Positions 9,492 through 49,900 of a stretch of 64,000 nt of DNA are shown piece by piece. Position numbers and translations under genes: made by a program. The notes under the pieces were generated by a model that was not told where the DNA came from, searched no databases, and saw nothing but the letters and a program-made list of their open reading frames with translations. How positions within the stretch are numbered: position 1 is the stretch's first letter; every line of letters starts with the position of its first letter. Source of the DNA: Candidatus Thalassarchaeaceae archaeon (lineage in GTDB: Archaea; Thermoplasmatota; Poseidoniia; Poseidoniales; Thalassarchaeaceae); contig JASLKP010000006.1 of assembly GCA_030747485.1 (NCBI GenBank), positions 1 to 64,000 on the forward strand, given 5' to 3'.

Positions 9492-9833
9492 ATGCTCGTT
9501 CGATTACTCTCTAATCTAAGCCAGATTGATGGCGTAAATGGAGCATCGGTATTACATAGCGACGGTACAGCTGTTGCTATCACTGGTGAAGGGCCACCAG
9601 TTGGTGCACTCTATGCAGAATTATTGCACGATGCAGCCCGCATGGCAACAACACTTGATCTTGGAACCATCCAACAATTGTGGTTGGAATCCGCCGACAA
9701 ACGACGCGTTGTCAGTACTCTTCGAGGAGGAGGTAGCCTATGGGTTGCTTCCTCAATAGCCACGCCGATTGGGAGATTACGCCATGAAGCACAGACCCTG
9801 AAACCCGTAATCGAAGATTTAATTGAGGTGTAA
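9492..9833 (+). CDS. Roadblock/LC7-like domain protein
   Basis: About 113 aa, pattern IDGVNGASVLHSDGTAVAITG...LRGGGSLWVASS...IGRLRHEAQTLKPVIEDLI resembles the Roadblock fold. ATG at 9492 chosen over TTG at 9480. Confidence 0.6.
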   Translation: MLVRLLSNLSQIDGVNGASVLHSDGTAVAITGEGPPVGALYAELLHDAARMATTLDLGTIQQLWLESADKRRVVSTLRGGGSLWVASSIATPIGRLRHEAQTLKPVIEDLIEV

Positions 9834-9835
9834 GA

Positions 9836-12800
9836 ATGTTTAACCTACCACCCGGAAATGCCGTTGACCCTGAAGCTGACTTGAGTGAAAGCCTGACCCA
9901 AATGCCCTTTGAAGCGGGCGTAGTATCTCATTACAAACCACGTGCGAAAACCCCGTGCGCCCATCGTTTAGTTTACGGTGGCCGAGTCGTAGGATGGTTG
10001 GCTGAAGCGGAAGCAAAACAATCGTTTGTCGTTGGAGAAGCAGCTAAAGTCAGATTGTTGGAACTCTCTGATTCACACGAATTGAAGGCACGGGGTGCAG
10101 AATGGAGTTCTGCACAATTTACTGAAGTCGCTCAAAGAATTCCTGAAGCGTTTCCAGACCCATCTGATGTTGCTGCACTACTAGCACAAGGTGCAGCTGC
10201 ACTACCTGTCGAAGCGAAGGACCTAGCATTACTTGTTGATCGACTTGTAGATTCTGACGAAGTCAGGGGTGCACTCGCCTTTGAGGATGGAGTGCTCATT
10301 CACAATTCAGGAGATTTACCTAGCACTGCTGAATCACTTGCAGAATTGGGACACGAACGAATGGTTGGATTGTCATCAATGGCATCTGAATTCGGACAAG
10401 AAGATGCTTTATCCGCAACAATCAGACTTGATGGAGGACTACTCACATTCTCCGAAGCGGGTCAAGCCATGGTGGGCATTTGGTCCCGACATTCTGCAGA
10501 TGCTCAAGCAGTATTGTCCAATGCAGCCAGCATGATTAGTAGTGTACCAGAGGCAGTATTAACAGAAGGTGGTGAATTGCCTGAAGGCTTCATTGTCAAA
10601 GAAAGCAAAAGTGGAATTGATCAGTTAATCTCATCATTACGTGAGGCCCATGAAGGGAATGTAACGGGTCACCTTGAATCAATGAGTGATGCGGATGATT
10701 CAATCTCAATTGTTCTAATCGATGGTGTGCCAGTTGGCATAAGAGAATCAAATGATACCACCCTCACCGATGCAGTTCATTCAATGACTGTATCTTCACG
10801 TCGTCTCCGCTTGCATCGATTGGATCGAGGATCACGACTAGAACTAGCAGGTTCAACTGTAGAAGATTGGTCGTTGGCCCACCTGGTAGAAGCCATTGCG
10901 AATTGTCGAACTCGTTCTGAAGACAGGAAGCGATTACTCTCAGGGCGCCTTGATGCACTATTCGATTTCAATCTAGGAATTGAAGCGATGGAATCAGGTC
11001 GTTCAACATGGAAGATGGTCGAAGGTGGTGGCGGAACTGCAACACTAATGCCTGTATCCAGTGGCAAGGTCCTCACTCCTGCAGGAGGAGAAGTGAAGCA
11101 ACGACTAGAACAATTGGAACACGATAGAATCTCACTTGAGAGAGAAAAAGGACGACTTGAACGCGAAGTCAATGATGCACGTGCATCCCGTGACGAAGCA
11201 CGTGAATCGATGCATGATTTGGAAGCAACTCTAAGCGAAGCGAGAGAAGAACGTAGTGCATTACACAGAGAAATCGATGATCTTTCAGCAAAAATGAGAA
11301 TCAATGCAGAAGAGGCGGATGAAGCCAGTGCACTCTCTGATCGATTGGCAAAACGCGTTGCAGAACTTGAACACATGGTTGAGAAACGTGCTGAAGAATT
11401 GGCTAGCGCACTAGGCGAATTTGATTCACGTGAAACCCTGTTGGGGGACCTTAGAGATCTTTCAACTGAAGAGGCTCGAGTGAAATCTGAACTATCTGCG
11501 GCTGATACTCGACTGGATGAAGTTCGCAAAGCATTGGACCATGATGAGAGGCTACAGCGTGTCCTAACTGAACAAGTTGGTGCCCAAAGAGATCGCCACC
11601 GACTTGGCCAAGGAGAACTAGACGAAGTTGAACGACGCATTGAATCTCAAAGAGCCGAATTATCAGAACTTGAAGCAGAAGCACATGCTCATCGTCGATT
11701 AATGGAAGAGGAACGGGGACGTTTGTCTGATTCAGAACGAAAATCAACTATTATGCAATCTGAACTCCGTGAAATGATGGAAGAAAGAAGAATGCTACTT
11801 CGTGAATTAGGAGATTTAGATGCCCGAAAGGCCCAATCTGAGACCGAACTTCGAATGCTACTTGAACAGGCCGAAGATTTGCAAGAAGCACATGAAATGG
11901 CCCTCTTAGACTTACAAGAAGCAGACCGGATTCGTGCCAGACTTGCAGAGGAGCCCCTAGCTCAAGCACTGTTGGGCGACGATCGTGGGCTCTCCAGCCT
12001 TGAACCAGTATTGGACCGTATGGCAAATGCACGTAGTCGCGGTTACAGTATCGTCCTATTGGATCGCGCAGTCGAACGTGCGCTTTCCATTATCCAGCAC
12101 AGCGTAGATGAAGTTGCACGAACGCCCCGATATCTTCTGTCTACAGAAGTTATGGAATTATTGGAACGTCAAGCACCAGAAACCGCTGGAACGGTACGAG
12201 GACTTACACGTTGGTCGGTCCAATCAAGGCTTGAACATCAATTGGCTGAAACTGTACAACATGTTGTCATCGACCTTGAGGGCCTGTTGGAGGAATACGA
12301 ACAATCAGTGACCATGCTTGCACAACTACAGGATGTACTCAGAGGATTGGTAGACCTCGGCCTTCCTGCTGAAGAAATCAAACCACTCGAAAGGTTCAGC
12401 CATATGCCTGAGGCATTGCCTCATCTATCGATTGAAGTCCGTCGAATGATACAGAAGTCATTGGATGAAATCTATCTTGATGCTGACCGTAGAACTGCAG
12501 GTGACGCTGTTGGATTAGCTGAAACTGTTGAAGTCCTAGAACAATTACTGCGACGACTAGATGTTGCAGGATTGACGGGAGAAGATCCTGCTGGAATATT
12601 GTGGTCTTTCCAACGTACAGGGAGTCTTCCATTCGAAGCTGATGGGCTCGCACGACATGAAAGACCCAACATCAACAACGAGGCAGTAATTCACATGAAT
12701 CCAGTAGACATCAGTCCAACGGTTGCTGATGTCACACCAGTTGTTGCTCCAAGCGCTCCGACAGCAGCACCGACACCAGAGGCAAGCGCAGCCCCCGCAT

Positions 12801-13072
12801 CAAATTCAACTTGGGAGCCAATCGAAGAGGCTGCAGAAGAAGATGGGATTGATATTTCAACCCGCATTTCTGCTGGACTCATTCCTTCAGAAACACCTGG
12901 TACACCTGAAGAAGTTGCACTCATGGCAAAAATCGATGTTGAATTGGCAAATGTAGATGCCTCGGCAGAAGTACGTGATGGAACTGAAAATGGTGTACCG
13001 CCACCAGCAGATCCTGCTCACCGCGACGCTCTGGATGATTTAGAACGCGAACTATCTGACCTTGATTTCTGA
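9836..13072 (+). CDS. 1078-aa protein: N-terminal Roadblock-like region(s), long central coiled coil, globular helical region, Pro/Ala-rich linker, acidic C-terminus
   Basis: Central segment VKQRLEQLEHDRISLEREKGRLEREV... (about 11090-11950) shows clear heptad-like charge/hydrophobic pattern; N-terminal segment VRGALAFEDGVLIHNSGDLP...LSATIRLDGGLLTFSEAGQAMVGIWSR resembles Roadblock. Confidence 0.8.
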   Translation: MFNLPPGNAVDPEADLSESLTQMPFEAGVVSHYKPRAKTPCAHRLVYGGRVVGWLAEAEAKQSFVVGEAAKVRLLELSDSHELKARGAEWSSAQFTEVAQRIPEAFPDPSDVAALLAQGAAALPVEAKDLALLVDRLVDSDEVRGALAFEDGVLIHNSGDLPSTAESLAELGHERMVGLSSMASEFGQEDALSATIRLDGGLLTFSEAGQAMVGIWSRHSADAQAVLSNAASMISSVPEAVLTEGGELPEGFIVKESKSGIDQLISSLREAHEGNVTGHLESMSDADDSISIVLIDGVPVGIRESNDTTLTDAVHSMTVSSRRLRLHRLDRGSRLELAGSTVEDWSLAHLVEAIANCRTRSEDRKRLLSGRLDALFDFNLGIEAMESGRSTWKMVEGGGGTATLMPVSSGKVLTPAGGEVKQRLEQLEHDRISLEREKGRLEREVNDARASRDEARESMHDLEATLSEAREERSALHREIDDLSAKMRINAEEADEASALSDRLAKRVAELEHMVEKRAEELASALGEFDSRETLLGDLRDLSTEEARVKSELSAADTRLDEVRKALDHDERLQRVLTEQVGAQRDRHRLGQGELDEVERRIESQRAELSELEAEAHAHRRLMEEERGRLSDSERKSTIMQSELREMMEERRMLLRELGDLDARKAQSETELRMLLEQAEDLQEAHEMALLDLQEADRIRARLAEEPLAQALLGDDRGLSSLEPVLDRMANARSRGYSIVLLDRAVERALSIIQHSVDEVARTPRYLLSTEVMELLERQAPETAGTVRGLTRWSVQSRLEHQLAETVQHVVIDLEGLLEEYEQSVTMLAQLQDVLRGLVDLGLPAEEIKPLERFSHMPEALPHLSIEVRRMIQKSLDEIYLDADRRTAGDAVGLAETVEVLEQLLRRLDVAGLTGEDPAGILWSFQRTGSLPFEADGLARHERPNINNEAVIHMNPVDISPTVADVTPVVAPSAPTAAPTPEASAAPASNSTWEPIEEAAEEDGIDISTRISAGLIPSETPGTPEEVALMAKIDVELANVDASAEVRDGTENGVPPPADPAHRDALDDLERELSDLDF

Positions 13073-13082
13073 GGTGGAAAAG

Positions 13083-13367
13083 ATGGAAGAGGTACCCGCC
13101 TCACCAATGGACTCTGCTCAAGGCGATGGGACGCTCATGGGTAGAACGGAGACACATGGCCGCCCATACCCACATTTGGGTGAAAAATTCGGTGTCTTAC
13201 TTTCAATTGTGATCGTTGTCTATCTTGGTTGTTGGATGTGGAGTGATTCAGGATGGGCAAATCCAATTCTGTGGATTACCTCAATCTGTGGACTTCCATT
13301 GCTTACGATGTTCCTAGCAGAAATGTTTGGTAAAATCGTCCACACGTTGCATCAACGGAGTGAATAA
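13083..13367 (+). CDS. Small two-TM membrane protein, about 94 aa
   Basis: Two hydrophobic segments (FGVLLSIVIVVYLGCWMW; NPILWITSICGLPLLTMFLAEMF); overlaps nothing, follows the coiled-coil gene. Confidence 0.7.
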   Translation: MEEVPASPMDSAQGDGTLMGRTETHGRPYPHLGEKFGVLLSIVIVVYLGCWMWSDSGWANPILWITSICGLPLLTMFLAEMFGKIVHTLHQRSE

Positions 13368-14627
13368 TCAAGGGTTTGTACGACCCTTTGCCTTCTGAAT
13401 GGCAGTTTCAACCCATCCGGAGATTCTTTGCCACGGTACAATGTATCTCAACGCAGCAACGAATGTCAAAAACAGCATCGCAGAGATTACCTTGCCATAG
13501 GTGAGTCTCAATTCTAGAGATTCACGAACTTGGCCACTCCATTGTCCAGAACCTGCCCAACCCACAACGTCGATTATGAGGTCGTCAAACTTCAGAGCCA
13601 ACATTGTGACCAATGTCATCGCAAACACAATCACCACTGACTGTAGCATGTGACTGTTCATCAAATTCTGGAATTGACGAACATATTCAGGGTCCTTCTT
13701 ACATGACTCTGGGAGCCTGAATGCGTATTCCAAGAAGCGAATTGTGGCATGGGCTGTTTCTGAATATACCATCAACAGTATGGCGACCAATAACAAACTC
13801 CAGACATCACTTGAGATGAGTCCGCCCAACGAATCAGCTTCTCCAATTTGAGTGGGGAGCGGATTCAAACCAGGAGAATAAGGATCTGAACTAGATGCGA
13901 GTTGGTTGACCACTCCTTCGTAAGACAATAACGCATACAATCCAAGGAAGATGAGCATAATTGCAATTGACCAGTTGACCATTCGTTTCGATAAACCCCA
14001 GATACCAATCAAACCAAACAGAACAGGTGAGACAATGAGGATGACGATGAGTGCTTGGATATACACAGCCAATGGCCAAACCAAATGATTTGCATGATTT
14101 AGAGATGAATCCGCATCATGCCCAAAGGGCAAGTATAGATCAAAACTGGTAATCATTCCAAACGTCCAAGTCAGAAGGAACATTCCTGCAAGGAATAAAA
14201 TCAGGGCACCCAACAAACCGAGGGTGATTTTCCGACGTCGCTGAGGTGGCTGGAAATTTAGGGCAACCCATGCACCAGATACCATGGCCATGAGTAGAAT
14301 TGGCATGAAATAACGACCATCACCTTCGTTTCCTTGACCAGTCATCCAATCCGGTATTGGCAATTCATCAAATCCACTATCGCTTCCTGCGAAATACTCC
14401 TCAATTGCATCCAATGTGAGTGTATGATCAAGAGCGGGGCACCAAGCATCCTGTTCCACATAGGTAGGGTGACAATGGCCGAAAACTCGAGTCATTGTCA
14501 AGAAGAGCCAGATTAATGCGAGGCTAGCAACCATCTGGAGACCGACCACTCTCCAATCCTTCCGAAGTACGCGTAGATGGAGGCTTGTGAGGCCCTCTTC
14601 TTGCTGTTCTACATCTCCTGCCATCAT
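13368..14627 (-). CDS. Polytopic membrane protein, 419 aa
   Basis: Multiple TM segments; 9 nt downstream of the DUF58 gene. Confidence 0.75.
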   Translation of the reverse strand: MMAGDVEQQEEGLTSLHLRVLRKDWRVVGLQMVASLALIWLFLTMTRVFGHCHPTYVEQDAWCPALDHTLTLDAIEEYFAGSDSGFDELPIPDWMTGQGNEGDGRYFMPILLMAMVSGAWVALNFQPPQRRRKITLGLLGALILFLAGMFLLTWTFGMITSFDLYLPFGHDADSSLNHANHLVWPLAVYIQALIVILIVSPVLFGLIGIWGLSKRMVNWSIAIMLIFLGLYALLSYEGVVNQLASSSDPYSPGLNPLPTQIGEADSLGGLISSDVWSLLLVAILLMVYSETAHATIRFLEYAFRLPESCKKDPEYVRQFQNLMNSHMLQSVVIVFAMTLVTMLALKFDDLIIDVVGWAGSGQWSGQVRESLELRLTYGKVISAMLFLTFVAALRYIVPWQRISGWVETAIQKAKGRTNP

Positions 14628-14636
14628 CTCACCTCC

Positions 14637-15887
14637 TTACATTTTCACCTGTAGCAGTGCTTGTGAAAGTTCTACATCTGGCATCCAATCAATGACTCTC
14701 GCACCGTAACCTGCGACTGCAGACAATCGGTTCTGTCTCTCAAGTTTCATGACTTCGTAAGACATGCGTGGGATACGACTGACGAGGCGTTCGTAATCGA
14801 TACTACTTGGTGAAAGTACGACGACTTCGTGACCTCTACCAGCCAAGTCGCGAATGGCATTGGATACTGTCCCGTCACCCTCTAGACTACTGATGATGAA
14901 TACGGGGCTACCTCGGCTAAATCGAGGGGCGAGTGCATTCGTAACTGCTTGTAATGGCATATTCCCTTTTGGAGCAACACCAGCCAAACTACTGAGGATT
15001 TTGAAATATTGTTTGTCTCCACCATCTGCTGGTAGATATGACAACTGATCATCGAATACTGCTAAGGCCACTGAGTCTCTGCGCTTCAAGAAGTAAGAAG
15101 CAAGACTTGCTGCGGCGATGGTACCCATTTCAAGGGGGTTTTTCAAGACCGTTCCAATCCTAGATATATCTCTTGAATCGAGCAAGAGGAACACGTCAGT
15201 CACTGCATCTCGACACTTCTCATTGACCATCATGATACCAGTACGAGCAAATGCCTTCCAATTGATAATCTTGAATGGGTCGCCTGGAACATACTCTCTG
15301 AGTGAATAAAATTCGGTACCGGGACCGGGTGTGCGTAGAGTCGTTGCACCTGTGTACATCTTTGGAGTACGTGAACGAATCATTGCTTCTTCGACATCAC
15401 GTACTTGTGGAAATACGATGATACCTGAACGGTGATCGATGTACATTTCTTGACTGAAGAGATTGAAGGTGTTTCGGTATCTAATCGAGACTGGGCCAAA
15501 AGAAAAGTGCCCACGTAATGGACACCGGAGAACATAGCGGATTCGAGTGGTTTCTCCTGGGCCTAAGTTCACGCGCATGTAATTGAGTCCACTTCGTAAT
15601 TTCATTTCGTGCGGTACGTTGTCGAATATTTCCAATTGTTGCGTCCTTCTGGTAGAACTGTTGGTAATTGCCAATTCAACATACAAATCATCGCCTTTGT
15701 AGAGATTGTCAGCAGATAGGGTTCTGACGATTTCAAGATTACCGTGACCGGAAACCCAACTGTTAATTGCGAGGAATGCACAGAACATCAATCCCAAAAT
15801 CATCAATTGGAAATTTGAAATCATCATACCGATGAGAACTAGAGATATACCTGATGCGAGCATCAATGCAGCCTTACGTGTCCACAT
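14637..15887 (-). CDS. DUF58 domain membrane protein
   Basis: EFYSLREYVPGDPFKIINWKAFARTGIMMVNEK DUF58 signature after two N-terminal TMs. Confidence 0.9.
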   Translation of the reverse strand: MWTRKAALMLASGISLVLIGMMISNFQLMILGLMFCAFLAINSWVSGHGNLEIVRTLSADNLYKGDDLYVELAITNSSTRRTQQLEIFDNVPHEMKLRSGLNYMRVNLGPGETTRIRYVLRCPLRGHFSFGPVSIRYRNTFNLFSQEMYIDHRSGIIVFPQVRDVEEAMIRSRTPKMYTGATTLRTPGPGTEFYSLREYVPGDPFKIINWKAFARTGIMMVNEKCRDAVTDVFLLLDSRDISRIGTVLKNPLEMGTIAAASLASYFLKRRDSVALAVFDDQLSYLPADGGDKQYFKILSSLAGVAPKGNMPLQAVTNALAPRFSRGSPVFIISSLEGDGTVSNAIRDLAGRGHEVVVLSPSSIDYERLVSRIPRMSYEVMKLERQNRLSAVAGYGARVIDWMPDVELSQALLQVKM

Positions 15888-15902
15888 GATTCGTCACCTC
15901 GC

Positions 15903-17570
15903 TTACTTGCGCCCCCACATTTTCACTCGCTTAACAACTGCAACCAGCTGCTCAAGACTATATTTGCGATCTTCAAAGACGAATTTGACCAATACTGGAT
16001 CTGCAATCATTCTCTGTAATTCACGCGCAGGGAGTGCATCAAATTCGTCTCTTGTTAACGAATTGAGATTCCGCACTCGAGATAACAACACCTGTTTTAC
16101 TTTGTTAGCACGACCATAGTATCCATATCGTCTAGCATCACCAAATCCATAGTAAATGATACTGAATACGTGACGCCAAGGTTCGGGATCTACCTTCTTG
16201 ATGATGACTGCCTCAAAGGTAACGAATAATGCTAAGAAAAGGAATAACATGGCCATCCAATCATTTGTGAAATAGACAAGGATGTAGTAAATCAAATTGT
16301 AAGTGTCCCCCATAGCGCTGGGCTGCTGGTGGCGACTTTCGTCGAAAATAACTTGCTTGCCAGAACCGGAAGTACCCGTTGGTTGACCTGCTGAATTTGT
16401 AGCATTGTCATGACTCAATAAAGCCTCGGCAACCATATCTAAAATCCACTTTCGGTTATCATTATCTGGGACTGACTTTCCATTGAGGTCACCATAATCT
16501 CCACCATTTGCATCATCGTGGTCATAGACGACATTGATCAGTGCAGAACCATCGGTCACAAAGATTGCACGACCCATTGGGCTTGCCCCTGGATCTTCAT
16601 CACAATCTCTGTTCAAGCATACTTTGACTGCTAGGGTGAATGGGCCTTGTTCATCACTTTCAACACCGCCACCCTCAAAACCGACTGTCAGATTTCCATC
16701 ATCATTCGTATCCAAATACGAATCCTGACTTGAACGGCCGATTGCATAACGGTTCTCCGCTTGGAACTCTGCAGCATTCTTGTCAAATGCTGAGGGACTA
16801 TTCAGCAGAACGTTGTAATCAGTTGAGAAATTCCAACTACCAGATTCTAAGTGATGAGAACATAGACCTGCATCGTCACTGGTCAATTGTTGTAGATTAG
16901 TGGGATTATTTGGAGAATCATCTAGTCGATCGATGATACCATCGCCATCGCCATCAGAAAAACACGGATGTTGTGACGACATGTCTGTTCCAGTGTAATC
17001 GTAAGCATCAGTCACATTCATCCAGATGTAATTGTGATCCAATTCACGAGCCCATGATTCGCCGTCGTATAATCGGTGGCCACTGTATTCCAGACCAAAG
17101 ACGGAAGCCAATCCTCGAGCCCAACCAAAATCATCCATCACGATGATTGTGCCACCTCTTTCGACGTAACCAATGATTGCCTCAATCTCAGTAGTCGTGT
17201 ATCCTTCATTCTCACTGAATTGAACAACGTTAGACTCGCCAGTAAAACGTGGTAACGAAATTGTATCTTGTTCAACTCCAGTCACGATAAAGACCGTATC
17301 TTCAGGATTGTCAATCTCTTCAAGAAGTACTGGAGACGAGACGAGACTTCTAGTATCAACACCCATGTCTTTCAAATCACTTCTTAGTGTAGACAAATCA
17401 TCCCAATCATCGTCATATGCCGATAGATGTGGGTCACCCTCAACGAGGTACGCACTGACAATACTGTACAGCAATAAAGCAAGGACGACATAGAAAGCCA
17501 ACATGAGGCCACCTCGCCTCACCTTCTTGGACCGTAACGCGGTCTTGATGTCGATTTTTGGGAGATTCAT
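15903..17570 (-). CDS. DUF4350-like membrane protein with inserted TSP3-like Asp-rich repeat
   Basis: GGTIIVMDDFGWARGLASVFGLEYSG and next to DUF58; DGDGDGIIDRLDDSPNNPTN resembles thrombospondin type-3 repeat. Confidence 0.7.
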   Translation of the reverse strand: MNLPKIDIKTALRSKKVRRGGLMLAFYVVLALLLYSIVSAYLVEGDPHLSAYDDDWDDLSTLRSDLKDMGVDTRSLVSSPVLLEEIDNPEDTVFIVTGVEQDTISLPRFTGESNVVQFSENEGYTTTEIEAIIGYVERGGTIIVMDDFGWARGLASVFGLEYSGHRLYDGESWARELDHNYIWMNVTDAYDYTGTDMSSQHPCFSDGDGDGIIDRLDDSPNNPTNLQQLTSDDAGLCSHHLESGSWNFSTDYNVLLNSPSAFDKNAAEFQAENRYAIGRSSQDSYLDTNDDGNLTVGFEGGGVESDEQGPFTLAVKVCLNRDCDEDPGASPMGRAIFVTDGSALINVVYDHDDANGGDYGDLNGKSVPDNDNRKWILDMVAEALLSHDNATNSAGQPTGTSGSGKQVIFDESRHQQPSAMGDTYNLIYYILVYFTNDWMAMLFLFLALFVTFEAVIIKKVDPEPWRHVFSIIYYGFGDARRYGYYGRANKVKQVLLSRVRNLNSLTRDEFDALPARELQRMIADPVLVKFVFEDRKYSLEQLVAVVKRVKMWGRK

Positions 17571-30659: not shown

Positions 30660-33600
30660 TTACTCTTCTTCTCGATATGCATCAATTTGTTCCTGAGACC
30701 AACCAGCCTCAATCAATTGTTCATCGGTCCAATCTGTAATTTCAGTCATTTCAGACAATGATGTAGGCGATAACCCCGCCATTTCCAACAAAATCTCATC
30801 ACTTTCCTCTCCTGCTGTTTTGGACCATGCATCATCTGGTAGAACTTCTTCTTCAATTGGAAGGTCATCAGAGCGGTTGGAGACGAATATACCAGAGATA
30901 AGCAAGAGTAGAAGCAAGAAAAGTCCAACCACTCCAATCACAATTCCAGTCAGTGCAGAAGGAGGACCCTTTGAGGTCTCATCTGTGGTTTCATTTACTG
31001 TAGCGGACTGGTTTGCCTCGCGCGCGCGTAGGAGAATCTCACGATTGACAGACAATCCACTCTCATCTAAACAAGCGATTTGGAAGGTGTAATTGGTCTC
31101 TGAATCACCAGTAGGGGTCCATGCATGAATCCAATCTCCACCAGCATCAGGATGGAATAATTCAGAGATTACAGTGATTCCATTGGGTTCAGTCATTAGA
31201 ATTGAGCACTCAGTGCCATCATTACCATCTGCATCAATAATATTGAACTTCAGAGTAGATTCTTTTCCTGAAGTTAAATCAGTCGGCATCTCTGAGAAAT
31301 CCAATTGTGGTGTTGCACCTCGGAAATCAACCATCAATGGATTTGAAAATCCGTTCAAACCATCAATATCTCGTAGGTATACAATCATCTCAATGGAACC
31401 AAGAGGAAATGAATTCAGATACGAATCTAAGACCAGAATTCGGTAATATCGATTCTCTTCTCCTGTCCCTGGTGTACATGCCGCAGGTGGGACCATCTCA
31501 ATCATGGTCTCGATTGGAGCATTCATTTCGTGGCCGGGTTCTGCTGAGAATTGGATTCCACCTAATTCAATTGGTCTTCCTTCAGGTATTCCAATCCAAA
31601 CGTATACTCCAGTGACACCACGCGTCAAATAATCAACAGAAACACTGCCCTCACAGATGATTGGAGCCGATAATATGGGAGGCGTCAAGAAAACAGGGCG
31701 TGTCCATTCCCATGAAAGATTCGTCCAAGTCCCGTTGGTAATTGTAGCAGTGATAATGCCCTCACCTTGTTCAAGACCTGCAGGGGCTGTGACCGTCGGT
31801 GATGTTACGAGTTGAGAGCCAGAACCTGGCCACTCGATTTCGATTGAGAGTTCAAATTCAACAAACGGGTCATCCTCATCTGTAATTTGAAGATCAATTA
31901 CATCGGACGCACCACTGAGATAATTCACGTTAAGGAGTTCTGCTGTTGGTGCGAGGTCAATTGGAATCAACGTACGATTTGCCCATTCAACCCCCTCGGC
32001 ATAGAGACTCATTTGGATGGGCTCTAGGGACCCACCTGCAGGTGGTTGCCAATTGATTTGGTAACATGTCTGACTACCGGAAGTACTGGAAATTTGAAGT
32101 TGTGGTAAATCGATTCCATCAATTTGAATTCTTGGTGAATCAGGATGATATTGATGATCCAAATCGATGACACACGCGGTGATAATATGCTGCTGGCCTC
32201 GAATCCAACCTGAGGCATTTGGAGATAATGTGTCTGCTCCAGTCCATGGTGAAGCATCAACACCTTCGACGTGTGGACCATACCAAGTAGATGGGGCATC
32301 GACAATGGTGAAGGCATCATCCCATTGCATGCTATCTGAGAGATTTGATGCGTCGACAACAAACCAATGTAAATCAACTGAGGTCAGAGGTATATCGGCT
32401 GGTAATGTGATACTAGCAACCCACCGAGATGGTGAGGATATACTACCTGCGCTGATGTTAGCCCACGAACCATTCCACCAATCCAAACGCCATGAAAGGG
32501 TAGCAGCGACCACACCAAAATCGTCGTCAACTTGAACTTCACAAGTTACAATTCCTCCACGAGCAGCTTCAGTGGTAGAACAAATTGAACCCGTGATTTC
32601 AGGACCTTCGTTAATCTGAGTATTCAGTGTTGCTAGATTGTTATCGATGACTCGCTCTGGGTGTGAATTCGCAGGAATCCATCGAACAATGAACTCGATG
32701 TATCCAGTTCTAACCGGTGTTATATTCACAGGTAAGATTAGGCGACTTCCCTGATCATTGCCACCTGGAATTGTCATTGAAATATTGGCCAATAATATAC
32801 TACCTTGACGATCTCGAACCTCAAGGTAACCTACGGCTTCAGCAGGTGCAAGATTTTCCATGAGTACCTCCAAGGTACCATTCACATCCTTGCTCAACAT
32901 GACGGGGGTGCGTACATCGGAGATATTCACATCATGTAATCGATTAGAATAGGCTGCCATCTTCGGGTCACCAACCACAACACCCATCCATGATAGGAGA
33001 ACGTTGGAAGCCGCATAGCATTCCGCAAGGGTGAAACCTTGAGCATAACATTCGAAGAGTTGTTCTGGATTGGAAATTGCTGATAGATAAGGTTCGTAGA
33101 CATAGCCTTTGACGCCTGAAACGCCATCCTCTAGTAAATCTGCTACGAGGCTTTGTCCATAATCTGTACCTAGAGTGAATGTACGCCCCCCCGTACTCAC
33201 CGCAGTTTCCGCAATGCTTCCATCAAGCCAAGTAAAATGAGGGCGTATTGGATACAACTTGAGAGTATCAAAGAAAATAGATCCATTGTATGTTCCAGAA
33301 TCAAATTCAGCGACCTGGCGAATAGCAATGCTGGTCGCATTAATGTGAGGGCGGAAGCGTAGAACTCGAGATTGCCAATCATCGGAGAATGCTCGACTGT
33401 CTGACTGATTCGTGGAGAGTGATGTCCCGTTGGAATCTAAGGATTCGACCTCTAACCACCAATCGCCTTCGACCCATCCCTCTCTCATTGAATAACCATC
33501 GAGAACCCAAGCATGTTCTTGCAAATCTGATTCGATTGACCAAACCTGTTCTACAAATGCGGTTGAATTTGATGTTGTATTGAATGATGGGCAAATCCAT

Positions 33601-35804
33601 ACAATTTCATCGTGAACGTCTGCAACCTCCTCTTCACTCAATGCAGTTTCCCAAATTTGCACCTCGTCAATGACACCAGTAAAATGAGTGCTACCTGCTC
33701 GATTCACCCCAAATTTGTATAGTTCAATGCTATTGATTGTACCATTGGGAACACTTTGATTGAGAACCTCAACACCATCGATGTAGAGTGTGACATTGTC
33801 GTTTTCAAATGTCGCAACTAGGTGTTGCCATACAGTTGGATCTACGGTTCCAAAACTGTATGAATTATTGTGATATAATTCCCAATTTCCAGGATTTCCA
33901 CCACTGGCCATAATCTGAAATGACTCGTCATCCCCTGCAACATCATTGACCGCAATTGCCGAAGAGTATCGGGGCTGACCAGAATGATTGGCCTGTACCC
34001 AAAGACTGACGGTGAAATCAGTAACCATATCGTCAACATCGACGCGAGCTTCATCGTCAACACCATCAAAGAAAGCACAGTTGCCCAAAACACAAGTTCG
34101 CCATTGGCTACCATTTGTTCCTGTGAAATTGAGGTGGGCTGAGCCAACAGAGTCGTTGGCAACATCGCCGCTGTTCTCATCAAATTCCCAATGATGGATG
34201 AGTTCCGATTCGCGAACGGGATGACTGCTACCACGTGTAAGAACATTTGTTGGAACGGTTTGCTTAGAGATTCCGGGGCCTTCCCATTTGAGTTCTAACC
34301 CTGCATAACCACCATGCTCAAAGAACTCTGTTCGCAACTCGTGCTCACCAGTTTCAAGCCATACTATTCCTGACTGCTCCTGCATGGAGTGGTGTCCTTG
34401 ATTATCTACAATTTCAACATCATCAATCCAAAGTTTGGACCCATCATCACTGCGCAAATAGAATGTCCAATTCCCAGTTGTTGGAATATGAATTACGCCC
34501 GTATGCCTAGCGCTCCAATATTCAAGGAAGCGACTGTCTAATCCAGTCCAAGCATGCTGTGTTGATGGCCAGTCGATGTTTGGTTCATGTCGAACGAAAT
34601 CCGGTGTTCGTCCTGATAAGTTAACCATGGTACTAACATTGTATGTCACACCATTGTTATCGAAGTATTCAGCCAACAATCCATTGGTAGTGGATGCATC
34701 GTTAGCACCACATGGGGCATCCTCAAGTCGGCCCTCCATAGCAGCATTCCCATTTCTCTTGGTCTCTGTCTGCCGGGCCCACCACCATTGTTCACCTGGA
34801 GACAGTGAAGGACCTACGCCGTCCCAATATCTTGAGCCAGTTGACCATGAACCATCCGATGTATCATATCCTGAATTTGACAATTCATTGTTCGCCCAAA
34901 CCCCATCGTTACTACCCCAAGAGGTGTACATCGAGACATTCTCCATGTCGGTGACGAATGTATTGTTTTGATTGAAATGTATAGGGAAGCCCATGCTTGA
35001 AATGGTCGCATCAGTCGTGTAGAGGAGATCATTCCACCACTTGTAACCTGAACCATTTCGATTTGTTGCCAAATCCAACACGGTTAGTCCATGTTGTCCA
35101 AAACTATTGTTGGTCTTTTCAATGAGATTTAGTGCGGTATCCAAATCATAACCAGTCAATCGAGTGACAAGATAGTAGCCTTGTTCTAATCGGTTAAATT
35201 CACTCATCTCATTTCCAGCGGCTAAACCATAGTTTGAGGTTGCATACCAATCTGCATGAATGCTACTGGCAAATGGACCACCTATCAATGCAATTTCAGA
35301 ATCAAAAGAGGCCCGAGAGTTGGTCCCACCATTCACTCGGAGAGGTACGCCTTTCGTCGTCACCAGAACATTGAGTTCAGTGAGATTTCGATTCTGAATC
35401 ATTTCTTGAATTGGTGTAACGAAGAATGTGTCGAATTGATCATTGTTGATTGTCTCCCCCGTAGGAGTGCTCTCATTGGTCAATAAGAAGATCCGTTCAG
35501 AAGGGATGCCTCTAGCATCTGCAAATGCATATCCAATGACTCTGCTGACTTCACTTTCGTTATTGATAATAATCGCGACATCACTGTAATCTGCCATCGA
35601 CATATGATTGAATGGAGTCGAAACTGCAACGTCTCTAAACGGTGTTTCATTCCAAGAATCAACATGCACCCCTCCTTCGGAGGGAAGGTTCTCAATCGCT
35701 TGAATCGGAGTGAAAGATGCCCAAGATTGCAGCAAAATTAGCAAGACCAGAGCATAGGCCTGACGGGAACGCACGGCTTCGCACGCCCTACATCGACATT
35801 TCAC
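30660..35804 (-). CDS. Giant surface protein, 1714 aa: TIGR03790-like N-terminus, PA14-like and LamG-like domains, C-terminal TM and acidic cytoplasmic tail
   Basis: SDVAIIINNESEVSRVIGYAFADARGIPSERIFLL; GNWTFYLRSDDGSKLWIDDVEIVDNQGHH (PA14); HWEFDENSGDVANDSVGSAHLNFTGTNGSQW (LamG). Confidence 0.85.
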   Translation of the reverse strand: MKCRCRACEAVRSRQAYALVLLILLQSWASFTPIQAIENLPSEGGVHVDSWNETPFRDVAVSTPFNHMSMADYSDVAIIINNESEVSRVIGYAFADARGIPSERIFLLTNESTPTGETINNDQFDTFFVTPIQEMIQNRNLTELNVLVTTKGVPLRVNGGTNSRASFDSEIALIGGPFASSIHADWYATSNYGLAAGNEMSEFNRLEQGYYLVTRLTGYDLDTALNLIEKTNNSFGQHGLTVLDLATNRNGSGYKWWNDLLYTTDATISSMGFPIHFNQNNTFVTDMENVSMYTSWGSNDGVWANNELSNSGYDTSDGSWSTGSRYWDGVGPSLSPGEQWWWARQTETKRNGNAAMEGRLEDAPCGANDASTTNGLLAEYFDNNGVTYNVSTMVNLSGRTPDFVRHEPNIDWPSTQHAWTGLDSRFLEYWSARHTGVIHIPTTGNWTFYLRSDDGSKLWIDDVEIVDNQGHHSMQEQSGIVWLETGEHELRTEFFEHGGYAGLELKWEGPGISKQTVPTNVLTRGSSHPVRESELIHHWEFDENSGDVANDSVGSAHLNFTGTNGSQWRTCVLGNCAFFDGVDDEARVDVDDMVTDFTVSLWVQANHSGQPRYSSAIAVNDVAGDDESFQIMASGGNPGNWELYHNNSYSFGTVDPTVWQHLVATFENDNVTLYIDGVEVLNQSVPNGTINSIELYKFGVNRAGSTHFTGVIDEVQIWETALSEEEVADVHDEIVWICPSFNTTSNSTAFVEQVWSIESDLQEHAWVLDGYSMREGWVEGDWWLEVESLDSNGTSLSTNQSDSRAFSDDWQSRVLRFRPHINATSIAIRQVAEFDSGTYNGSIFFDTLKLYPIRPHFTWLDGSIAETAVSTGGRTFTLGTDYGQSLVADLLEDGVSGVKGYVYEPYLSAISNPEQLFECYAQGFTLAECYAASNVLLSWMGVVVGDPKMAAYSNRLHDVNISDVRTPVMLSKDVNGTLEVLMENLAPAEAVGYLEVRDRQGSILLANISMTIPGGNDQGSRLILPVNITPVRTGYIEFIVRWIPANSHPERVIDNNLATLNTQINEGPEITGSICSTTEAARGGIVTCEVQVDDDFGVVAATLSWRLDWWNGSWANISAGSISSPSRWVASITLPADIPLTSVDLHWFVVDASNLSDSMQWDDAFTIVDAPSTWYGPHVEGVDASPWTGADTLSPNASGWIRGQQHIITACVIDLDHQYHPDSPRIQIDGIDLPQLQISSTSGSQTCYQINWQPPAGGSLEPIQMSLYAEGVEWANRTLIPIDLAPTAELLNVNYLSGASDVIDLQITDEDDPFVEFELSIEIEWPGSGSQLVTSPTVTAPAGLEQGEGIITATITNGTWTNLSWEWTRPVFLTPPILSAPIICEGSVSVDYLTRGVTGVYVWIGIPEGRPIELGGIQFSAEPGHEMNAPIETMIEMVPPAACTPGTGEENRYYRILVLDSYLNSFPLGSIEMIVYLRDIDGLNGFSNPLMVDFRGATPQLDFSEMPTDLTSGKESTLKFNIIDADGNDGTECSILMTEPNGITVISELFHPDAGGDWIHAWTPTGDSETNYTFQIACLDESGLSVNREILLRAREANQSATVNETTDETSKGPPSALTGIVIGVVGLFLLLLLLISGIFVSNRSDDLPIEEEVLPDDAWSKTAGEESDEILLEMAGLSPTSLSEMTEITDWTDEQLIEAGWSQEQIDAYREEE

Positions 35805-41879: not shown

Positions 41880-44800
41880 ATGCGGAAAATAGCGATTCTA
41901 CTCCTTGCAACCCTGCTTTTCTCCTATACTCTGCCATTTGCTTCGGCCGTCACCGAAACACAGTACTCTGACGGTACGACTACCTTCACCCATGTCTTCA
42001 GTCAATCTGGAGATGCGGCAACACCTGGGGTAACATTGCCATATGGTGCAAATGTAGAAGATGTGGAATTTGTAATCGAAGGTGAAGCATCACAGCAGAA
42101 TTGGATTAACCTCTCTGTCGATAGGGACTTCAATGGTCCAGGAACCACGAATACAAACTTCAATCCAACTTGGTTTAACGGTGGCTATCGAACAAACCTC
42201 GCTTCGGAAAATGATGAATTGCAACTCAATACTCAAGAGACCACTTCGTATTGGTCATTGACATCCAGCAATGATGTGGCCAGTAGTTCAGGAGGAGTTC
42301 TCAACACCACTGGCGGCCATTTCTCGATGTCTGAGAATGGAATGATGGGAATCACGACAGAACGAACGGAAACATTGACTGGAGGGAATTGGAATTATGT
42401 CGGACCAGTCATCAAGCAATATGATGAAATCCATGTCACCAAATGGACATCTACAAGCCTTTACAATACACCCTCTATGTATCGATACAACGCAACAACT
42501 GGAACATATATTGGAATCACGAACTTGAATATCGGATCGTGCACATCTTCTGCTTCGGCATATGTCTATGATGTAACAAGTGACGGAAATGGCACCGTTT
42601 GGATGGTGTCATATTCCTATCGATACATCTCTCGTTGGACATATAATCCGACTGCAAATCCACCAACCTATACCTGCCAGCAGAGTTGGTCGGTACCAAC
42701 CTCTGGTTCCACGCGATACCCATACGGGATTGCCTTTGATCCAACAGATAATGAAATGTATTTCCTAACAGGAACATATCAAAGTCCATCATATATCGTC
42801 GAGTTGTGGAAGGTGAATCGTTCATCACCTACCACATCTCAGGCTAGTTGGACTCTTGGGACGATTCAGAGTGGCCACGGAATACCATCTGGACTAGACG
42901 TCCAAATGCCTCGAATAACCTACAATGTCTTTTGCTCATCTTCCACTACAATATCAACAAATTGCAAAGCAAGATCTTACCTGAGTGTATACCATACCAC
43001 TGGAACGTGGCCAGAACATCAAGGCGACATTCTCTACGATATGCCAATTTATGGTCTTGAACGAATAGATGATGAACTCGCTTTCACTTGTTATTATTCT
43101 TCAGTCTGTCCATCGGGCCAAACTCGGAAAGTGAATATCATAGGCACTAGTACTCCGTCATGGACTGGTACGCCCAGTAGCACTGCAGCAATCATTACAT
43201 CTAGCGTGAAAACACTGTCTAGTCCAGTCACCCAAGTCAAGTTAGGGGCTGCTGTGACTTGGGAACCCACTGGGACATCAGTTGATTTCATGGTTACAAA
43301 TGATGGGGGCACCACTTGGAAGAGAGCAACCACAGGAAATACTGTGACTTTTGCCAATGGAGGTACTCAAATTGCTTGGAAGGCTTGGCTCAATGGTACC
43401 ACTACCGACGCTCCCATTCTAGATTCTGTAGGACTATCCTACACTGCGTCCTATTCCCCAACTGGTCAAGTTCGGATGTATTATTATGCCTTCCAAACAG
43501 GCAATACGATGCCTGTGGCGTCAACGATTTGGTGGAATGCGTCAACACCAGGTGGTAGTTCACTTGATTTCTATTGGTACACTGGTTCATCAGCTTGTAA
43601 CGGGAAAACGCATAATATTGCTAGTTCTGGATCTACGGTAACGTTCTCTGGAACAACAAGTTATCTCACCCTCTGCATTGATTTCGATGCTGGAACAAAT
43701 AACGAATACACGCCAACACTTTACGATTTTAATGTTGTAACTTACACCAATGCTCCGCAAAATGTCAAACTCGACATTGGAGATGACAACACATTCGAAT
43801 GGAGTCATACAGGAAACCTTCTGAGTCGAATAACTGTCTCAAACAGTGAAATGATTGACAGTTTCAACGATTTGGTGCCACAAACGGGTACTGGAACCAT
43901 TGTGATTCCAATCAATCTGCACTCCGGTTCTGCAGGAAAAGTGAACATCCTATCAATGAGTATTGAGTATACAATGGTGACTGTAAATCTCGATTTGCAA
44001 TATGATGAGAACATGGTATTGCACGAACGTTCAGAACCATATGAAATCATCACAAGGCATGTGATTGGTGACAACTCATTGAGTATCACAAATGCCGAAT
44101 TAACCTTCCTTGCATCCCCTAGTTCAGATGCTCCGAAACTATCATGGACAAATGATGGAACATTAGTGGATGATGATCCTGAAGATTGGATTATTCCTGA
44201 TCAAAGTACAACATGGACATCTACAACAAACGGAATCTTTGAGATTCATTGGATGTTCAGAGTCACCGATGATTTCCCAGAACAGAATAATGTTGGTTTC
44301 CGAGTGAGTTGTACTGATGACAATGGTTTCACTCCTGAAACACTGGCAACAGTTTCTACTGGAATTTATGTCAACCAATCCTATGGATTGGGATGGTTAA
44401 ATTTGCATGATGTCGAAGGAGAAGTAACTGAGAATGATGTACAAGATGGACATTGGATTGTTGCCGGAGAAACGGTGCACTTCCAAGGACAAATTTGGTT
44501 CTCAGGAACACAAGATGCCCCACTGAATTCTGTCTTTGATGTTAGAGTCGTGAGAAAAGACAGCCAGGGTGATTTTACTGCCGCGTCGTGGAAGGATACC
44601 TCGAATGCAAATGGTTCCTTCTTCATCTCTGTCGAAATTCCTTCTATGGATATTCCCGATGGAGTAACATTTGAAATTCAAATCTACAATGAACGTGACC
44701 CTACAAAGGTCCTAGCGACTGAAAATTCGTGGCGACGAACGGTTCGGGTGGACAATTCACCGCCAGCAATCAGTGCTAATTGGCCTGCTGATGATGATTA

Positions 44801-46925
44801 CGAAGCCTCGAGTGAAGCACAGCAAATTGCCATCACCATTGATGACGCTATTGGGCAGCCAACGAATCTAACGCTGCACTATTGGGTTGAAGCGGATCAT
44901 GATACAAATCGAAATGGTGTCGCTGATGAAGAAGAATACGTGAATCAAACGTTAACAAATGTCACTGAAGATGCTGAGAAGGTGTTCTTTGGTATCATTG
45001 ATGACTCAAGGAATCCAAACATGGCTCGTGTTTCCTACTATGTGTCTGGAACGGATGTCGCTGGAAATCAATTGGTATCACCAGATGGTCCAGGGTTTGG
45101 ATATGATCTCGCCACTTATCGTACTCGAAAAGATATGGCATCCGTATTCACTGGTCTTGACTGGGTTGGCCACTCAGATGGGAATGATGTATTCAGTGGT
45201 ACTGAACAATCAATCTCTGTAGGATTGGTAGATGCAAATGGAATTATCGATTTTGAATACATTGCACTCATCTTTGATTTTGAAGGGCCAGACCCTGAAA
45301 GAGATCAGCAGCGAATGTGGTACGATGGAAGAGAAGATTCGTGGTTCTACGATGAAGCATATCTTGAATTATTATCGAGCAGTTCAACGACTGTTACAAC
45401 CAACAACTCTGGACTCCCATGGATTTTCATTGACTTTGATTTCAAGTTCTCATGGGATTGGCCAGATGAAGACATTTCTGATTTGGCCTTAGAATACAAG
45501 GAACTTGGTTCACCGACTCCAACTAGAATCGAATTTAGCGAACATACATTCAGTGTAGAGAACGATTTGGTGTTGAATGCGAATTCATACTCTGTTGAAG
45601 ATGTGGCTGAACCAAGAGTTGGGCCACTTGACGATGCGACACCCGTCAGACCTGACGACAGACTCCGATGGTCAGGTCATGTCGTTTACGAAGATAGCAA
45701 TGTGCCAGCACCCAATGATTTGGGAATTACTGTTGAAGTCTTTGATGGCGTTCAATACTGGTCAGATGGAAGCCTTGCAGATGATGGTAGCTTCAGTATT
45801 GAAGTTCCATTGTCTGCAGCCACCTCATTGCAGAGTGCCGAAAGTCGAACATTCCTCACAGGCGTGCGAAATGTGCCTGGTCGTGGAGAAGACATGACCA
45901 GAGATACTGTTGCAACCACCTTGCAATTACAGGTGGATCACACACCCCCACGTGTTCATCATCGAATGGAACCAATCGATGTAATCGACATCTCTACAGA
46001 CAGCGATTTGACCTCTGTCCCTGTCAGGTTTGTCGGTTGGGAAGAATGTCTGTTAGCAGACGAAAATGACCGTTGTGCAGCCTTTGGACAAAGTCCACAA
46101 TGGGTGAACTGGGTCATGCGTGACGATGTTCGAACAATTGCAGCTGGACAATCGCCTCTTGCCATGCAAGTACTCGATGGAAGTATCGAATGGATTGGAG
46201 AAGTAGACCTAACCAGTGATGGTGTCGTTACGCCTCGTTCTGGCTATCGTGTTGGGTTCTGGATTACTGGGCACGACGCAGCAGGAAATGAATTCCCAAT
46301 GACTGCAAATACAGAGAGCGACCCTGTGCGTGAACGCACTGAAGATGATGGTGACTTCGATCTCGCTTGGGTGAGATTAGGAGCAACTGTACCAGAATTA
46401 ATTGTGCAAAGTGTGACACTTGAGGAAGACACAGTTAGTGAAGGTTCAGAGATTAAGGTCGTTGCAATCATTGCCAATGTTGGAGGCGTGAATGCCTCAT
46501 CATTTACAGTGAAGTTCTTCGCTGGAGACAAAGAGATTACCACGGAGAGAATCGCAGGACTACCTGAGGATACTGATCATCGGATTGAAACCACCTGGAA
46601 AGCCAAAAAAGGTGTTGACAGAATTACTGTAATCGTTGATGCTGACAATGAAGTTGTCGAAGTTGATGAAGAAGGGAACAGCATGTCAGTGGGTATTTCG
46701 GTTGAATATTCATGGGGAATGGGCTGGATTGATAGTTGGCGAAAGAATCCACTCACTGTGATTGGAGTCATTTTCGCATTCATCTTGTTACCAGTCATTG
46801 CAGTAATTACCTGGAAGACATCATTGTCTGGTGCTCAGGACCTCTATGCTGAGGAACTACACTACGAAGACGAAGATGACGACGAATGGGAATACGAAGA
46901 CGAAGATGACGATGGATGGGAGTGA
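41880..46925 (+). CDS. Giant surface protein, 1681 aa, with CARDB-like domain, TM and duplicated acidic tail
   Basis: Signal peptide; CARDB-like PELIVQSVTLEEDTVSEGSEIKVVAIIANVGGVNASSFTVKFF; TM; tail YEDEDDDEWEYEDEDDDGWE. Confidence 0.85.
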   Translation: MRKIAILLLATLLFSYTLPFASAVTETQYSDGTTTFTHVFSQSGDAATPGVTLPYGANVEDVEFVIEGEASQQNWINLSVDRDFNGPGTTNTNFNPTWFNGGYRTNLASENDELQLNTQETTSYWSLTSSNDVASSSGGVLNTTGGHFSMSENGMMGITTERTETLTGGNWNYVGPVIKQYDEIHVTKWTSTSLYNTPSMYRYNATTGTYIGITNLNIGSCTSSASAYVYDVTSDGNGTVWMVSYSYRYISRWTYNPTANPPTYTCQQSWSVPTSGSTRYPYGIAFDPTDNEMYFLTGTYQSPSYIVELWKVNRSSPTTSQASWTLGTIQSGHGIPSGLDVQMPRITYNVFCSSSTTISTNCKARSYLSVYHTTGTWPEHQGDILYDMPIYGLERIDDELAFTCYYSSVCPSGQTRKVNIIGTSTPSWTGTPSSTAAIITSSVKTLSSPVTQVKLGAAVTWEPTGTSVDFMVTNDGGTTWKRATTGNTVTFANGGTQIAWKAWLNGTTTDAPILDSVGLSYTASYSPTGQVRMYYYAFQTGNTMPVASTIWWNASTPGGSSLDFYWYTGSSACNGKTHNIASSGSTVTFSGTTSYLTLCIDFDAGTNNEYTPTLYDFNVVTYTNAPQNVKLDIGDDNTFEWSHTGNLLSRITVSNSEMIDSFNDLVPQTGTGTIVIPINLHSGSAGKVNILSMSIEYTMVTVNLDLQYDENMVLHERSEPYEIITRHVIGDNSLSITNAELTFLASPSSDAPKLSWTNDGTLVDDDPEDWIIPDQSTTWTSTTNGIFEIHWMFRVTDDFPEQNNVGFRVSCTDDNGFTPETLATVSTGIYVNQSYGLGWLNLHDVEGEVTENDVQDGHWIVAGETVHFQGQIWFSGTQDAPLNSVFDVRVVRKDSQGDFTAASWKDTSNANGSFFISVEIPSMDIPDGVTFEIQIYNERDPTKVLATENSWRRTVRVDNSPPAISANWPADDDYEASSEAQQIAITIDDAIGQPTNLTLHYWVEADHDTNRNGVADEEEYVNQTLTNVTEDAEKVFFGIIDDSRNPNMARVSYYVSGTDVAGNQLVSPDGPGFGYDLATYRTRKDMASVFTGLDWVGHSDGNDVFSGTEQSISVGLVDANGIIDFEYIALIFDFEGPDPERDQQRMWYDGREDSWFYDEAYLELLSSSSTTVTTNNSGLPWIFIDFDFKFSWDWPDEDISDLALEYKELGSPTPTRIEFSEHTFSVENDLVLNANSYSVEDVAEPRVGPLDDATPVRPDDRLRWSGHVVYEDSNVPAPNDLGITVEVFDGVQYWSDGSLADDGSFSIEVPLSAATSLQSAESRTFLTGVRNVPGRGEDMTRDTVATTLQLQVDHTPPRVHHRMEPIDVIDISTDSDLTSVPVRFVGWEECLLADENDRCAAFGQSPQWVNWVMRDDVRTIAAGQSPLAMQVLDGSIEWIGEVDLTSDGVVTPRSGYRVGFWITGHDAAGNEFPMTANTESDPVRERTEDDGDFDLAWVRLGATVPELIVQSVTLEEDTVSEGSEIKVVAIIANVGGVNASSFTVKFFAGDKEITTERIAGLPEDTDHRIETTWKAKKGVDRITVIVDADNEVVEVDEEGNSMSVGISVEYSWGMGWIDSWRKNPLTVIGVIFAFILLPVIAVITWKTSLSGAQDLYAEELHYEDEDDDEWEYEDEDDDGWE
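46863..46922 (+). repeat. Tandem 30-bp coding duplication encoding YEDEDDDEWE-YEDEDDDGWE
   Basis: TACGAAGACGAAGATGACGA... at 46863-46892 and 46893-46922, in frame. Confidence 0.9.
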
Positions 46926-46990: not shown

Positions 46991-49900
46991 ATGGCTGGAT
47001 TTGATACACTTTGTGACCCTCTTCGCAATTATCTAGAGAAACAACATTGGGAACCCACTCCCATCCAAAATGTTGCAATTGAACCACTCCTTTCTGGAGA
47101 TGACCGCCTATTGATTGCACCCACTGGATCGGGAAAAACAGAAGCTGCAATTCTACCGATTATGAGTCGAATATTCACCCACGGGTGGGGTCCAATGTCA
47201 GTCCTCTATGTTACACCTCTAAGGGCATTGAATAGAGACATCAACCGACGATTGGAAGAATGGTCATTATTGGCTGGAATCTCAATTGGTTTACGCCATG
47301 GAGATACGTCTCAAGCAGAGAGGAATAGGCAATCAAAGAATCCACCGGATTTACTGGTCACAACACCAGAGACTCTGCAAATCATGTTGACAGGTAAGAG
47401 ACTGCGAGAACATCTGAAGAATGTTCGAGTTGTCATCGTTGACGAAGTTCACGAATTGGCCGCTTCCGAAAGAGGAGGACAATTACTGGTAGGGTTGTCT
47501 CGAGTGGAAGAACTTGCTCGGAGACGGATTCAGCGAGTCGGACTCTCTGCAACAGTTGGAAACCCAACCGAAGTTGCACATTGGCTCTCACCAAATGCAG
47601 GAAAGCCAATCATCGCACCGGCACCACGTTCCACAGAGATCCGAATTACATGTTCACAACCTGAAGATTCAGATGTAGCAATCGCATTGGATTACAATAC
47701 TTCACCTAAAGCAATGGCATCACTTCGAATGCTTGCGGGTCGTCTGAAAGATGATGCGCCTGCACTCATCTTTGTCAACAGTAGAAACGCTGCAGAAACC
47801 GTTGCATCTAGACTGAAGACATTTGATGAAACATTGGATATTGGAGTACATCATGGTTCGTTATCCAGTGATTTACGTGAAGAAATGGAGAATAGACTCC
47901 AGAGTGGTGATATCCATGCATTGGTCTGTACAAGTAGTTTAGAATTAGGCATCGATGTAGGTGCCATCAGACATGTACACCAAATTCAATCCCCAAGAGC
48001 TGTCGATCGTTTGCTACAAAGAGTTGGGCGAGCAGATCACGTCCTAGGGGGTACTGGTCGTGGAGATCTTGTTGCATGGGAAGTTGATGATATTGCTGAA
48101 GCTGCAGTCATTGCAAGGCGTGCAGTACAAGGAGAAATTGAAGGCGTCAGATGGAGGACAATGCCACGTACCGTCGCTGCGAATCAAATGGTGATGATGA
48201 CATTAGCAGAAGGCATCACGCCGTTATCAGCAACGACTACACTATTGCAGCGCACTTCCATTTTCTCTGAATGGTGTCACGATGACACGTTGGCACTTGC
48301 AAGAATTCTAGCAGATCGATGGTTGATTCGTTTGGTTGAAAACCCAAGCGAATCGGATCCACTAGAATGGGCTCCTTCACTTTGGAGAGCACTTGCAGTG
48401 GGACTTGCAATTCCAGCAGAAAGACCGAAACCGATGGATATTGAGGCAACTGAAGATTCTGAATTAAATCGATGGAGGAAAGAAATTCGCTCAAGATTGC
48501 CACAACATCTCAAGGAGGGTTGGACGTCTGCAAGTTCTCGTTCACGTCAATACATGCTTTCTCACCTTTCGATGATTCCTGATGAGCAACGATACACTGT
48601 CAGAGATGCCGTCACTAGGAAGGGCATCGGTTCAGTCGACGAGGCTTTCGTCCTCTCATTGGATGATTCTGGTCAGGAGACTGATGGAGCACCTCGACGT
48701 TTCGTCATGGTCGGACGTACGTGGGAGATTGTTGAAGCCAACCCTGAGAAATCCGAATTATTGGTTTCACCAGCCAGAGTGAGTGGTCCTGTGCCCATTT
48801 GGAGTGGCGAATTGCCTCCAGTTCCGGCTGAAATTGCACGTGAAGTTGGAGCCCTTCGTCGTAGAATTAGGGGCCTCGCCAGTGGAATCCAAGAGGAGGA
48901 GATGGAGGGTGCCGAGAGACTCGATTGGATTGGTGGAGCGATGCCAGATGTCGACATAGAGGACTACCCCCTTGCTCCAGATGCAATGGACATTCTCATG
49001 AATACCATTAGCGAGCATGTAGATGCTACCTCAAATCTACCTGATGAACGACATCTAGATATTGAAACAAGAAAAGATGCAATCGTAGTAAATTCATGTC
49101 ATGGAAGCAGGATAAATGAAACCTTAGCACACTTCCTACAAGCGATGGCGTCGACAATTGAAGGAAAGATGGGGCGGGTCATTGTCGACCCATACAGAAT
49201 CAGTTTACAGGTGCCGGGATTACGTGCATCACATGTCATTGATTGGCTCACTGAAACCCAACCTGAAGGGCTACTCAGTATCATGAGAGTTACAATTCCT
49301 AAAGGTCGTCAATTACGTTGGAGGTTGGTACAAGTTTGCAAGGTATTTGGAGTACTTCGTTCAGGCATAGATCCTCGCAAGGTCAATCTCGCAGGAATTG
49401 CGAATCGATACAAGGGGACCCCACTGATGGATGATGCATTGGACAAACTGTTCAGTGAGCGAATGGATATTGATGGAACTGTTGATTTGTTACGAGCAAT
49501 TCAAGATGGGATTGTGAAAGTAGAACACCGTAGCCCTGGACCACTTGGTTTATCTCCACGTTCTGAACGAGATATGCAACTACCTGAATGGTCGAATATC
49601 GAAGTTCGTGAACGACTTGAAGGACGCTTGATGAATGAGCGGGCGATTACAATTTGTTTACGTTGTAAAGCCTCGACTCGATTCCGAGTTGCACGTTATC
49701 CAGAAATTGATGCAAAGTGTACAATATGCAATGCCACAATGCGAGCAGTTGCTCGTGAAGCACAGGCTGAGGACTTGAAAAAATGGGTCAAGACTGACGA
49801 TGATGATAAGATTCGTAATCGAATGATGCGTAACGCAGAGATGGTACAGAACAGAGGAATTGATGCAATTCTCTGCCTCATGGCACGTGGAGTTGGTGAG

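Follow-up and report, generated by a model that had tools for sequence, protein, structure and literature searches.

We analysed a stretch of 64,000 nucleotides (hereafter the window) from a Candidatus Thalassarchaeaceae MAG of 1.41 Mb, which comprises 69 contigs and is 72% complete. Three genes, here called A, B and C, follow one another closely on the + strand. Gene A (9492–9833, +) encodes a stand-alone Roadblock/LC7-fold protein of 113 aa, assigned by profile evidence, gene B (9836–13072, +) a multidomain Roadblock/coiled-coil protein of 1078 aa and gene C (13083–13367, +) a protein of 94 aa. These are the co-directional reading frames that a first-pass annotation of the window had proposed, and they were confirmed at exactly the same positions. 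A and B are separated by 2 nt and B and C by 10 nt; at both junctions a Shine-Dalgarno-like GAGGTG precedes the start codon. Comparison between species gave dN/dS values of 0.05–0.12 for A, 0.03–0.04 for B (from two pairs, with synonymous sites near saturation) and 0.09–0.20 for C. With values of about 0.03–0.20, all three are thus under purifying selection and are real genes. Across genera A and C change fast (roughly 18–55% identity), whereas B evolves more slowly (35–79%). Other genes in the window include two that likely encode surface proteins, a 1714-aa protein with PA14 and Laminin_G_3 domains (30660–35804, -) and a 1681-aa protein with CARDB (41880–46925, +), as well as an Lhr-like DEAD/DEAH helicase with a DEAD_assoc domain (46991–50017, +).

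The window copy of A matches Pfam Robl_LC7 with E=4e-4 and 20.5 bits, which is under the curated cut-off of 23. The same model is matched by 22 of the 47 A-family members, with a best value of 9e-8. When the family profile was searched against the PDB, solely Roadblock-type chains were matched, among them 7f8m (2.8e-10), 7yh1 (6e-8), MglC (3e-5) and, weakly, MglB. By sequence profile A therefore belongs to the Roadblock/LC7 superfamily, and its earlier description as Roadblock-like is borne out.

The N-terminal part of B was modelled with AlphaFold2 on 57 homologues (pLDDT 82) and contains three globular domains followed by a long helix at residues 362–389. The first-pass annotation had regarded residues ~110–360 as Roadblock-like. 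One Roadblock domain does lie in this region (domain II, residues 129–235, 10220–10540, +), while the remainder is a second, unrelated alpha/beta domain. Domain II shows the Roadblock arrangement a-b-b-a-b-b-b-a in the model, and Foldseek assigned its predicted structure to the Roadblock fold with an E value of 2.5e-6 and a TM score to the target of up to 0.79; the best 50 matches are nearly all Roadblock-family structures, LAMTOR chains among them. The B profile additionally matches 3leq at residues 142–234 (E 1e-3), and domain II can be aligned colinearly with A by profile comparison (E 8e-4, valid for one comparison).

Domain I (residues ~20–120, 9893–10195, +) and domain III (residues ~252–356, 10589–10903, +) are both alpha/beta in the model and show no mutual resemblance by profile. 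In domain I the strands span residues 27–89, helices reach up to residue 119, and a conserved RRKTPxGHRLVRAGRxVGWLAE motif is present. Searches with this domain returned no convincing match, and searches with domain III gave no family and only chance-level matches. An identity of either domain with DUF4388/PATAN was rejected, as PF14332 remained silent at the B locus in seven carrier genomes even at E<=10. VMAP was likewise rejected for domain III, since the best VMAP-C match among 57 members was 0.007 and hence at chance level.

Downstream of these domains B continues with a coiled coil of about 270 aa (residues ~421–690, 11096–11905, +), recognizable by a 3.5-residue hydrophobic periodicity. 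The heptad pattern is sustained over this region and absent elsewhere in B. NCBIfam SMC models match the coil with E 1e-11, and B might on this basis be read as a chromosome-associated SMC-like protein. The match is, however, confined to the coil and reaches 43 bits against a cut-off of 729, no ABC ATPase head of the SMC/Rad50 type is visible in B and the operon partner is a membrane protein, so that we consider such a role highly improbable. A defence role was rejected as well, because the sole PADLOC match, to LmuB (0.003), was confined to the coil.

The coil is followed by an all-helical domain (residues ~691–937, 11906–12646, +). With a mean column identity of 73% over residues 691–937 it ranks with the best-conserved regions of B. 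Its model (pLDDT 82) is all-helical, the domain itself lying at ~718–938, and has no known fold: the fold search matched no solved structure, the best E value being 0.5. FliS-like profile matches (E 0.01) were absent from the fold search and were taken as chance. B ends in a low-complexity acidic tail (residues 938–1078, 12647–13069, +) with a net charge of -23 in 143 residues. Tandem short motifs of the form LExELAxLDA and the conserved C-terminal LxxLExxLxxLD in this tail resemble docking motifs. Two carrier genomes deserve mention with respect to B. In a single-contig genome (locus L038, G002) apparent frameshifts, which probably stem from errors in long-read assembly, split both B and the neighbouring gene TM419, and the MAG of isolate SAT218 (G030) holds two full copies of B on different contigs (L157 and L159), reflecting either mixed strains or a duplication.

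C carries a conserved N-terminal tail (TLxGRxExxGxxYP) and two hydrophobic segments predicted to span the membrane; by the positive-inside rule both of its termini would be cytosolic. Its two segments support the membrane-protein partner proposed in the first-pass annotation, and the Roadblock folds of A and B, the coiled coil and the TM protein C together support a scaffold-type architecture of this archaeal gene set.

We then determined the distribution of the three genes. B is present in 120 of 195 genomes of the order Poseidoniales, and among 341 genomes of the class and 392 of the phylum no match was reported outside the order. A-B-C occupies one syntenic site across the two families of Ca. 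Poseidoniales (Marine Group II), and the conserved three-gene order supports the first-pass annotation in this respect. Close kin of the host are recorded as Ca. Thalassarchaeaceae / MGII MED-G33; Ca. Poseidonia alphae is a member of the second carrier family. The order at the site is ncsA (-), then A, B and C, then TM419, DUF58, DUF4350 and CDC48 (-). A matches either directly precede B or lie next to it at the end of a contig. C lies immediately downstream of B wherever the contig extends and was not identified at one locus, L042. The gene order kept across Poseidoniales and the purifying selection on each of the three genes show that the arrangement is not due to chance.

At 11 sampled loci from seven Thalassarchaeaceae genera the three genes are missing. 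Here ncsA is joined to TM419, 87–366 bp apart from match to match, and these 11 junctions show no trace of the three genes. The seven non-carrier genera form one clade in a six-gene tree (UFBoot 94), so A, B and C were lost once and together. This joint loss is the best evidence that the three genes work as a unit. We regard the three-gene unit and its folds as well supported; the three proteins may form a physical complex.

Small GTPases are the usual targets of Roadblock proteins (PMC4316618, PMC10933270), and A matches MglC and weakly MglB. A and B could accordingly form an MglA/MglB-type module regulating a Ras-like GTPase encoded elsewhere, as the first-pass annotation had considered. The genome searches did not bear this out: Arf (PF00025) was above the cut-off in 0 of 18 carrier genomes, although 12 of 14 control genomes scored above it, and Roc (PF08477) was above the cut-off in 1 of 17 carriers. 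The carriers searched include a single-contig, 96% complete genome. The one exception (locus L078, G066) is the sole tested carrier with clear Roc-type small GTPases above the cut-off, possibly through contamination or lateral gain. No GTPase gene was identified beside the operon either, and the first-pass annotation had seen no Ras-like GTPase in the window. Because nearly all carriers are without a Ras/Arf/Roc-type match, an MglA-MglB-like module is unsupported and we consider it quite unlikely. A and one domain of B are accordingly filed as Roadblock proteins and not as an MglA-MglB system, small GTPases of the Roc type having passed the cut-off in G066 only.

We also considered whether A-B-C forms a polar-cap-like cytoplasmic scaffold for the archaellum or for some other type IV filament. 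Rinke et al. (PMC6461757) reported that archaellum genes occur in half of the Thalassarchaeaceae genera and that chemotaxis genes could not be identified. Poseidoniaceae have A-B-C and, according to that study and our archaellin search, archaellum genes as well. The phyletic patterns nevertheless disagree in four genera: the carriers g6 and g11 gave no archaellin match, whereas the non-carriers g4 and g10 have archaellin. The distribution of archaellins thus does not track A-B-C; a link to motility was rejected and the filament scaffold appears very unlikely. The polarity or cytoskeletal role that the first-pass annotation had considered is conceivable.

The best lead to the function of A-B-C comes from neighbours that the first-pass annotation had left out. 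Convergent to C lies a cluster encoding a 419-aa multi-TM protein (TM419, 13368–14627, -), a vWA-type DUF58 membrane protein (14637–15887, -) and a DUF4350-like membrane protein (15903–17570, -). This cluster (13368–17570, -) adjoins CDC48 and is kept order-wide, with MoxR genes located elsewhere; MoxR-type AAA+ genes were present in 17 of 17 tested genomes, with or without A-B-C. MoxR proteins commonly partner vWA proteins as remodelling chaperones (PMC9976466). TM419 and DUF58 persist where A-B-C is lost, and A-B-C is therefore not required for them.

For each gene we calculated the patristic distance to Poseidoniaceae of non-carriers over that of carriers, with 5–95% bootstrap ranges, and used CDC48, Aldedh, NcsA, pyrB, pyrI and GHMP from the same neighbourhood as controls. 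Divergence was most raised in DUF58, with a ratio of 1.83 (1.57–2.07), followed by TM419 with 1.44 (1.32–1.52). The controls ranged from 1.00 to 1.31 and DUF4350, at 1.22, stayed inside this range. The highest control, pyrI (1.31), reaches 1.42 in the bootstrap and so overlaps the range of TM419. In DUF58, 13 columns invariant in 16 carriers are altered in 11 of 11 non-carriers, compared to 0–3 such columns in CDC48, Aldedh and NcsA.

The raised divergence of both genes and the 13 changed DUF58 positions after the loss, seen against the background of MoxR-vWA pairing, led us to propose that DUF58 and TM419 were adapted to a membrane scaffold made by A-B-C, and that its loss may have altered the selection acting on them. 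As only one loss event is available, coupling of A-B-C to DUF58/TM419 is suggestive only. The shift could also be coincidental, caused by genome streamlining or changed selection in the non-carrier clade, and A-B-C a self-contained membrane scaffold or cytoskeletal linker unlinked to these neighbours. The loss was seen once, the non-carrier genomes among those listed are smaller (1.2–1.6 Mb) and some control genes rise slightly too; on the other hand, the two most shifted genes are those adjoining the deletion site, and CDC48 and NcsA did not shift. We rate such an independent scaffold as rather unlikely.

Our preferred reading, held tentatively and at somewhat less than an even chance, is that A, B and C assemble into a single complex. 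It would be a membrane-anchored Roadblock scaffold, specific to Ca. Poseidoniales and apparently independent of a GTPase, that serves the DUF58(vWA)/TM419 module. Pairing of A with domain II of B, of A with itself, or both would create a dimeric platform. The coiled coil would form an extended dimer that holds the N-terminal head apart from the helical domain and acidic tail, and C, through its conserved cytosolic tail and two TM segments, would keep B tethered on the cytosolic side of the membrane. The scaffold could help to place, assemble or regulate the adjoining envelope module, the direction of action being itself conjectural. It is conceivable, if on the whole doubtful, that a Roadblock scaffold without a GTPase client, whether this was lost or absent from the start, organises the vWA/DUF58 membrane module, with the helical domain and acidic tail of B binding the client.

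The usual view takes Roadblock proteins to regulate small GTPases and to belong to what eukaryotic membrane traffic inherited from archaea. A-B-C is an order-wide, vertically inherited Roadblock module of uncultured, globally abundant archaea, the most common ones of the surface ocean, and in nearly all carriers no such GTPase was found. The non-carrier clade provides a natural knockout, by which the role of orphan Roadblock proteins becomes testable, and the suggested coupling offers a candidate function for genes without an assigned role. A scaffold organising vWA/DUF58 proteins would, if true, represent a new mode of use for the Roadblock fold. The literature searched contained no description of the A-B-C module; within it, Roadblock and Poseidoniales were mentioned together only in an Asgard review, each named once. 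The module thus consists of ordinary parts, Roadblock domains and a coiled coil, in an arrangement that we did not find described and that is kept through most of one order.

Among known systems, the Roadblock proteins of Asgard archaea (7f8m, 7yh1, 9jue; PMC10933270) are the nearest relatives of known structure, judged both by profile and by fold. Unlike B, they are short single-domain homodimers without a coiled-coil fusion and are accompanied by many small GTPases (PMC10933270). The Streptomyces conservons (CvnA-D) also place a Roadblock protein in a conserved operon, and the CvnB-type structure 3leq matches both A and B; conservons, however, have a histidine kinase and the GTPase CvnD (PMC4316618), neither of which occurs in the A-B-C unit. 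MoxR-vWA (DUF58) modules resemble the locus in that the adjoining cluster encodes DUF58 and DUF4350-like proteins, whereas A, B and C are not homologous to their known parts and gave no significant VMAP-C match. With the MglB/MglC-MglA polarity module of Myxococcus and Thermus A-B-C shares Roadblock proteins and the possible heterodimer of two Roadblock partners. It differs in that no Ras-like GTPase was found, in the dedicated membrane protein C and in what B adds, namely two extra domains, the coiled coil and the new helical domain. In Ragulator/LAMTOR, lipidated p18 is the anchor of Roadblock heterodimers and Rag GTPases are the clients. B and C show no such relation in sequence; the likeness, with LAMTOR chains among the fold matches, is one of architecture, that of a membrane-anchored Roadblock scaffold.
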